DNA from: Nitrospirota bacterium
GTDB taxonomy: Bacteria > Nitrospirota > Thermodesulfovibrionia > Thermodesulfovibrionales > UBA1546
Direction: 5' to 3'
Assembly (NCBI GenBank): GCA_016195565.1
Contig: JACPZK010000031.1
Location: 62,001 to 126,000, forward strand
DNA length: 64,000 nucleotides
Made by a program: the position numbers and the translations under genes
Notes under the pieces: generated by a model
What the model was told of the DNA's origin: nothing
What the model saw: only the letters and a program-made list of their open reading frames with translations
Databases searched by the model: none
Shown here: in pieces, positions 12,671-13,980 of the stretch
Layout of the letters: the number at the start of each line of letters is the position of its first letter
How positions within the stretch are numbered: the first letter of the stretch is position 1

Positions 12671-12716
12671 TTGACTAAACTGATTTTTGTGTGGTATTGT
12701 TCATGGTATGAACAAT
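12671..12716 (+). promoter_or_regulatory. Promoter with perfect palindromic operator over the regulator start codon
   Basis: TTGACT (12671-12676) and TATTGT (12695-12700) are 18 nt apart, a good sigma-70-type promoter. A perfect 9-bp inverted repeat, ATTGTTCAT-GGT-ATGAACAAT (12696-12716), overlaps the -10 and includes the ATG at 12708. Predicted transcription begins at about 12707 and no Shine-Dalgarno site is seen, so the message may be leaderless. An operator here would let the encoded winged-helix protein repress itself. Confidence 0.7.
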
Positions 12717-13307
12717 CATCCGCCTGAGGACATATCCCTCAGGCTGCTTGACGAACTTACAAAGGAGTCGGTGATTACTCAGCGGGCCTTGGCTGACCGC
12801 CTTGGGATTGCCCTCGGCTTAGTTAATGCGTATGTAAAAAGGCTTTATAATAAGGGACACATAAAGGTCAAAAATCTTCCTAGAAACAGAGTCAAGTATA
12901 TAATCACTCCTAAGGGTTTTGCAGAGAAGGCAAAACTTACCTACAGTTACATGAACCGCTCAATAGACTATTTCAGAGACGTTCGGCAGAAGATTGAGCA
13001 GACTTATGCGGTAATGATGGCCTCCGATGTTAAGAATATTCTTCTCTGGGGCGATGGAGAGGTTGCTGAGTTATGTTACATCTCTACAAGAGGGCTGCCG
13101 CTTAAGATTGTTGGTGTCGTTGCGACTCGAAACCGAGTTGTTGCTGACAGTGGTATGGAAAAGGGATTTTTCGGGCATGACATCTATTCAATAGAGAATG
13201 TCAATGGAATTGAGTATGATGCAATACTGGTTGCATCCCTTGACGGCAGGGCAAGTGAAACGATGAATAGGGCAGGCGTAAATCCCGAAAGGGTTTATTA
13301 TCTATGA
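12708..13307 (+). CDS. Winged-helix regulator fused to a Rossmann-like sensor domain
   Basis: The protein is 199 residues from the ATG at 12708; a TTG seven codons upstream lies inside the promoter. Residues about 8-72 form a MarR-type winged helix (SVITQRALADRLGIALGLVN, then KVKNLPRNRVKYIITPKG), resembling the regulators found at exopolysaccharide loci. Residues about 105-199 (NILLWGDGEVAELC, LKIVGVVAT, YDAILVASLDG) look like the nucleotide- or sugar-nucleotide-binding Rossmann half found in PglD-like and CoA-binding proteins. It could sense a sugar nucleotide or redox cofactor and control this locus; that is inference. Its stop overlaps the antiterminator start by 4 nt. Confidence 0.82.
   Translation: MNNHPPEDISLRLLDELTKESVITQRALADRLGIALGLVNAYVKRLYNKGHIKVKNLPRNRVKYIITPKGFAEKAKLTYSYMNRSIDYFRDVRQKIEQTYAVMMASDVKNILLWGDGEVAELCYISTRGLPLKIVGVVATRNRVVADSGMEKGFFGHDIYSIENVNGIEYDAILVASLDGRASETMNRAGVNPERVYYL
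13119..13140 (+). repeat. 22-nt GTTGCGACTCG repeat, copy 1 (inside regulator)
   Basis: This 22-mer matches 13344-13365 with one mismatch. The sequence has a small internal stem (ACTCG with CGAGT). Here it is read as VATRNRV in the regulator's Rossmann-like domain. Confidence 0.7.
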
Positions 13308-13852
13308 TAAATATGGAATTAACTGATATTTCAGGAGCTTATCGTTGCGACTCGCAACCGAGTTGGTATGCTGTTCATGTTAAATCCCGCCATGAGTTTA
13401 AAGTGGTGGAAAGATTAACAAAATCCGGCATAGAGACTTTCCTGCCTGCTGTTGAGAGACTCAGCAGATGGAAGGACAGGAAGAAGTTAATAAATTTCCC
13501 TCTTTTCCCTGGTTATATTTTTGTCCATATGAATAAGATTTATGAAGCCATGCTGACTGTCCTGAAAACCCGGGGCGTTGTAAGATTTCTTGGCATTGTT
13601 CCCGGTGAGCCGGAGACTGTTTCAGAAGAGCAGATAATTTCTTTAAAAAAGCTTGTTGAAAGCAAAGAAACCCTTGACCCCTATCCGTATTTAAAAGAAG
13701 GCCAGAGGGTAAGGATAAAAATGGGGCCTCTTGCAGGCGTGGAAGGTATACTTGCGGAAAGGAAAGGACAGCATCTCCTTGTTCTCTCTGTGGATATACT
13801 CAGGCAAGGGGTGTCTCTGAAGATAGACGCATCGGATGTAGAGAGAGTTTAG
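13304..13852 (+). CDS. NusG-family specialised antiterminator (RfaH/UpxY-like)
   Basis: The 182-residue protein has a NusG N-terminal domain from about residue 21 (WYAVHVKSRHEFKVVERL, FPLFPGYIFVHM) and a KOW domain at about residues 125-160 (EGQRVRIKMGPLAGVEGIL). Paralogues at the head of long polysaccharide operons bind RNA polymerase and suppress premature or Rho-dependent termination. The long downstream run of same-strand genes fits that role. The first 20 residues are extra and partly encoded by a 22-nt repeat. It is co-translated with the upstream regulator. No clear recruitment site was found. Confidence 0.9.
   Translation: MINMELTDISGAYRCDSQPSWYAVHVKSRHEFKVVERLTKSGIETFLPAVERLSRWKDRKKLINFPLFPGYIFVHMNKIYEAMLTVLKTRGVVRFLGIVPGEPETVSEEQIISLKKLVESKETLDPYPYLKEGQRVRIKMGPLAGVEGILAERKGQHLLVLSVDILRQGVSLKIDASDVERV
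13344..13365 (+). repeat. 22-nt GTTGCGACTCG repeat, copy 2 (5' end of antiterminator)
   Basis: One mismatch to 13119-13140, and read in a different frame (RCDSQPSW instead of VATRNRV). The shared unit is therefore DNA- or RNA-level, not a shared protein motif. Confidence 0.7.
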
Positions 13853-13892: not shown

Positions 13893-13980
13893 AATTAAGC
13901 CCTTAGGCTGCATATCTTTGACGGGATATGTGACTGAGAGGGCGGAGCATTGCAGGAACTTGCTGGAGGAATAGCAAAAT

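Follow-up and report, generated by a model that had tools for sequence, protein, structure and literature searches.

Does the perfect palindrome that lies across the promoter and the start codon of a regulator gene in a Nitrospirota bacterium serve as the operator of that gene, and which step of expression would it block? We analysed this in the window (the whole stretch of 64,000 nucleotides) and in relatives.

Promoter, palindrome and start codon

The palindrome, ATTGTTCATGGTATGAACAAT, is 21 bp long (12696–12716), with 9-bp arms and a GGT centre, and is a putative operator. A promoter scan found, on the forward strand, a −35 box TTGACT at 12671–12676, an 18-bp spacer and a −10 box TATTGT at 12695–12700 that is preceded by TG. 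The extended −10, TGGTATTGT, occupies 12692–12700 on the forward strand, and most homologs have a similar TGnTA pattern. The palindrome overlaps the −10 box and its right arm holds the ATG (12708–12710, forward strand), 6–7 bp after the −10 box ends. No Shine-Dalgarno-like tetramer precedes this ATG; several other genes in the window do have one. The initial annotation had described a perfect palindrome over the −10 box and ATG, TTGACT 18 nt upstream, the lack of a Shine-Dalgarno site and a leaderless gene with an operator over its promoter. All of these were found in the window, the leaderless-type start being predicted from the short distance between the −10 box and ATG.

Taken alone, without its relatives, the palindrome is unremarkable, because the window holds eleven perfect inverted repeats of comparable quality (loops up to 12, arms of 9 bp or more), compared with 1–6 in shuffled sequences; the chance expectation of 0.11 applies to this exact palindrome pattern only. 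Its significance comes from its conservation in relatives. The exact 21-bp palindrome is present in a single copy in the 2.3-Mb genome, and a search with up to 3 mismatches gave one further match, which is poor.

The regulator and its gene

The regulator gene (12708–13307, forward strand) encodes 199 residues, comprising a winged helix (about 6–66), a long helix (68–105) and a Rossmann-like domain (110–198). The protein scored 42.1 against the winged-helix profile PF13412, above the gathering cut-off of 21.9. Its best NCBIfam match was MarR_EPS (TIGR04176; residues 7–98), whose cut-off of 88 bits was not reached (70.6 bits). The same three parts, with 38 residues in the long helix, are seen in an AlphaFold (AF2) model with a pLDDT of 86 and a pTM of 0.73. 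Foldseek matches of the model included MarR and Rex chains at a whole-chain TM of only about 0.3, and 2g6t for the C-terminal part. The match with Rex was weak (E about 1e-4, TM about 0.33). Homologs hardly vary in the recognition-helix region, ALGLxN.

The stop codon of the regulator gene is overlapped by the start of the next gene (13304–13852, forward strand), which encodes a NusG paralog of the UpxY/RfaH type (NF033644; 132.4 bits, above the cut-off of 100). Thus, the proposed order of a winged-helix gene and a NusG-like antiterminator gene was borne out by profile matches. We also observed a 22-bp repeat, GTTGCGACTCGNAACCGAGTTG, in frame in both the regulator gene (13119–13140) and the NusG gene (13344–13365). 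Two copies within 3 mismatches were found in the genome and further copies in a sister species (L004, positions 1912, 2058 and 2158). It resembles a small insertion element within coding sequence.

Conservation of the operator among homologs

We collected 71 homologs from relatives and from a phylum-wide sample of Nitrospirota. The 15-bp operator core, GTTCA-N5-TGAAC, which lies at 12699–12713 in the window, is conserved across the phylum. An exact GTTC-N7-GAAC core was found no more than about 140 bp from the start in 64 of the 71 homologs, at a chance of about 0.2% per gene. The exact site was missing from L068, L075, L081, L088 and L089; L015 has one mismatch and L073 is masked by N. When a single promoter-linked copy is counted for each gene, 61 of 64 have A as the fifth core base. 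Since the sites were collected by exact match, the invariance of GTTC/GAAC and of the second codon, AAC, is partly circular, and we put weight on the number of homologs with an exact site, on the register and on an independent test of the site-to-gene link.

The start codon is at core position 10 in 50 of the 71 homologs, as it is in the window (ATG in 44, GTG in 6). None of these 50 has a Shine-Dalgarno-like tetramer, and 32 have no other in-frame start between the palindrome and the upstream stop. In 48 of them, TTGACa begins 26–29 bp ahead of the core. The palindrome of Nitrospira-type relatives lies over the promoter, and the start codon is 25–75 bp downstream; the distance from the −35 box to the operator is mostly 20–22 bp there. 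This distance is fixed and bimodal, and it places the operator of both groups over −10/+1 or over the −10 itself. Homologs with an embedded start fall in both main branches of the protein tree, and the trait is strongly clustered there (5 changes versus a shuffled mean of 17). Judged from the compared sequences, the conserved object is the promoter-operator, and the embedded start is frequent but not the rule, because the start codons of Nitrospira-type genes lie further downstream.

Association of the site with the regulator family

The independent test used the pattern TTGAC-N15-25-GTTCA-N5-TGAAC, which gave 127 sites in 296 Nitrospirota genomes; a reversed control pattern gave few matches. 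Most of these sites (108 of 127) have a TIGR04176-type gene on their own strand no more than 1.5 kb downstream. Family genes were the listed TIGR04176-type matches minus the weakest entries. Both site and family were found in 107 genomes, the site only in 8, the family only in 21 and neither in 160 (Fisher p about 2e-48, for genomes that are not phylogenetically independent). Some of the other 19 sites are chance; others precede gmd-fcl-wzm operons in three genomes (L166–L168) or a wzm-wzt operon (L171). In L169, L175 and L173, promoter, operator and the first regulator codons are kept where the gene has decayed, and the remnants in L169 and L175 precede a flippase or NusG gene. What the sequences show is the site itself, how it is conserved, its register and its link to the gene family.

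The core also lies upstream of short MarR_EPS genes of the phylum, several of which have GGCGGTAGC as well. In Chelatococcus, tandem cores precede a 35%-identical homolog; both are exact in one strain, and one is exact and one has a mismatch in the other. MarR_EPS genes of Rhodobacterales have GTTCA-N4-TGAAC upstream, which is one bp shorter. As a separate observation, Rhodobacterales plasmid loci (L161, L162, L163 and L165) mostly have GCGGTAGC between this core and the MarR_EPS gene. Searches of the literature on the operator motif or on the MarR_EPS TIGR04176 family gave nothing relevant and no description of an operator.

The genome of the window holds four exact core sites: one here, two in tandem at a paralogous regulator and one, apparently unrelated, at a gene end. 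A scan of the genome, as had been proposed for the palindrome, thus recovered core sites at both family regulators but no wider regulon. We rejected a genome-wide regulon in this genome on the ground that three of the four core sites belong to the two family regulators themselves. Core sites inside unrelated coding genes of other complete genomes were taken as chance.

Proposed mechanism and alternatives

We consider it likely that the winged-helix regulator encoded there has its operator in the palindrome, which would mediate negative autoregulation of the regulator–NusG paralog transcript in an exopolysaccharide locus. Binding, repression, a leaderless 5' end and a ligand are what we infer here. 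A regulator dimer would bind the half-sites GTTCA and TGAAC and so lie over both the transcription start and the end of the −10 box; the half-site centres are 10 bp, that is one helical turn, apart, which would fit a wHTH dimer. The bound dimer would exclude RNA polymerase, and because the operator lies over −10/+1, this predicts steric repression of initiation. Transcription is predicted to begin at the ATG or 1–2 bases from it, so the mRNA would be leaderless, and the right half-site would double as codons 1–2, ATG AAC. Repression is probably relieved when the C-terminal Rossmann-like domain senses a small molecule, which may be a nucleotide sugar or NAD(H). Along the long glycan operon, RNA polymerase may then be assisted by the NusG paralog. 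Earlier, binding was proposed to block both RNA polymerase and the start codon. The former part agrees with the position of the operator. A separate translational action by blocking the start codon is not supported, because the start codon lies 25–75 bp further on, outside the palindrome, in Nitrospira-type relatives.

It was also considered that the palindrome acts in the transcript as an RNA hairpin, which holds the start codon in its stem and limits translation. The site does fold well as RNA or single-stranded DNA (z about −4.5), and a read-through transcript from the dTDP-rhamnose (rml) genes upstream, with no terminator seen between, would include the whole hairpin. However, the left arm would be absent from the transcript of the conserved promoter, because transcription is predicted to start inside the palindrome. 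The arms conserve sequence and not pairing alone, and pairing at positions adjacent to the core hardly exceeds that of shuffled columns. Nitrospira-type genes keep the palindrome although their start codon is outside it. On these grounds of transcript start, arm sequence conservation and Nitrospira-type genes, we rejected the hairpin as the main mechanism and regard it as very unlikely; RNA folding of the palindrome would be relevant only to read-through transcripts.

We likewise hold it unlikely that another regulator binds the site and the local wHTH protein acts elsewhere. The paralog L033, which itself has two such sites, could bind the window's site too, but the site and the gene family occur together across the phylum and also outside it, and no other gene was seen travelling with the site. 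That the pattern arose by chance or from codon usage is hardly credible: the eleven comparable palindromes in the window would favour such a reading, but the non-coding left arm is conserved across the phylum and in distant relatives, at a fixed register to the −35 box. Activation rather than repression by the operator-bound regulator is a formal alternative. Among these readings, we prefer autorepression through the operator.

The glycan locus and the element after the NusG gene

The genes flanking the regulator, as read from their translations, include dTDP-rhamnose, UDP-glucose dehydrogenase and GDP-mannose genes. The rml genes lie upstream of the regulator on the same strand, and a scan of the region between them and the regulator gene found no terminator; therefore, read-through into the regulator is possible. 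Of the proposed autorepression switch for a whole glycan locus, likely autorepression in a glycan locus stands; that this one promoter drives the whole locus is a conjecture, and rml read-through is possible.

An intergenic element at 13900–13953 (forward strand) follows the NusG gene and consists of a weak hairpin and TGTGACTGAGAGGGCGGAGCATTG. It is highly conserved, and an Rfam search of the region that includes it gave no match. Next to the NusG paralog, versions of TGTAA(C/G)TGAGAGGGCG(G/A)AGC(A/T) are found repeatedly across the phylum, in the window and in L004–L019, L065, Nitrospira L082–L093 and L148–L157. In the alignment an 11-pair hairpin is weakly supported, with one pair showing a two-sided change, and a small GC-GNA-GC hairpin in the element is absent from the energy-model prediction. 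A copy with two mismatches was observed in another part of the genome, at G000:C22:32245 (L182, about 1501), about 50–70 bp before a WcaJ-like sugar transferase gene; its G to T and C to A changes would preserve the pairing of the small hairpin.

A second pair of regulator and NusG paralog genes was observed about 26 kb upstream of the window's regulator (L124 4533–5688; G000:C31). Two operator cores in tandem overlie the start of the paralogous regulator gene (L033), and the NusG gene of this pair is followed by a canonical ops. In one branch, which includes L033, the second core directly follows the first, so that the two operators spell the first seven codons, e.g., ATG AAC GTT CAG GAT TTG AAC. 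The element was found in 17 of 17 window-type loci and exact ops (GGCGGTAGC) in none of them; among paralog-type loci, ops was found in 8 of 14 and the window-type element in 0 of 14. RfaH loads at the ops hairpin in the non-template strand (PMC11001881), and by analogy the element is a candidate loading site: the UpxY-type NusG paralog may load at this ops-like sequence. It is conceivable, as a tentative proposal, that the locus has a two-stage switch, in which a repressor acts on an operator that contains the start codon and the co-transcribed NusG paralog loads at a new element dedicated to it, made of a hairpin with GAGGGCG(G/A)AGC after it.

Relation to known systems and meaning

Lambda cI, Tn1721 tetR and Rhodobacter sphaeroides acuR are leaderless autoregulated repressor genes, and the acuR operator, TAATAGAC-n6-GTCTATTA, overlaps its promoter (PMC3017554). 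The window's gene resembles these as a putative repressor gene that is predicted to be leaderless, has no Shine-Dalgarno sequence and carries a putative inverted-repeat operator on its own promoter, and, like acuR, it is the first gene of its operon. It differs from acuR in that a half-site contains the start codon in most relatives, and from all three in the protein family and in the setting of glycan loci with a NusG paralog. With MarR_EPS TIGR04176 it shares the winged helix and the genomic setting, and short members of that family also have GTTCA-N4/5-TGAAC upstream; however, it scores below the family cut-off (70.6 vs 88) and has an extra Rossmann-like domain. Rex redox repressors, too, pair a winged helix with a Rossmann-like domain within about 200 residues; the fold match is weak, and the gene context of the window's regulator is different. 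Like upxY, the NusG paralog gene lies within the operon that its product probably targets (PMC7593976, PMC7819879). Unlike RfaH/ops, the window's locus lacks the canonical ops and has another conserved element after the NusG gene.

The site provides a concrete putative operator for a widespread, uncharacterised family of exopolysaccharide regulators, whose targets would be predictable genome by genome, and promoter, operator and start codon overlap in many lineages of one phylum. If the two-stage reading is true, different loading sites, the new element and the canonical ops, would separate two paralogous elongation factors.
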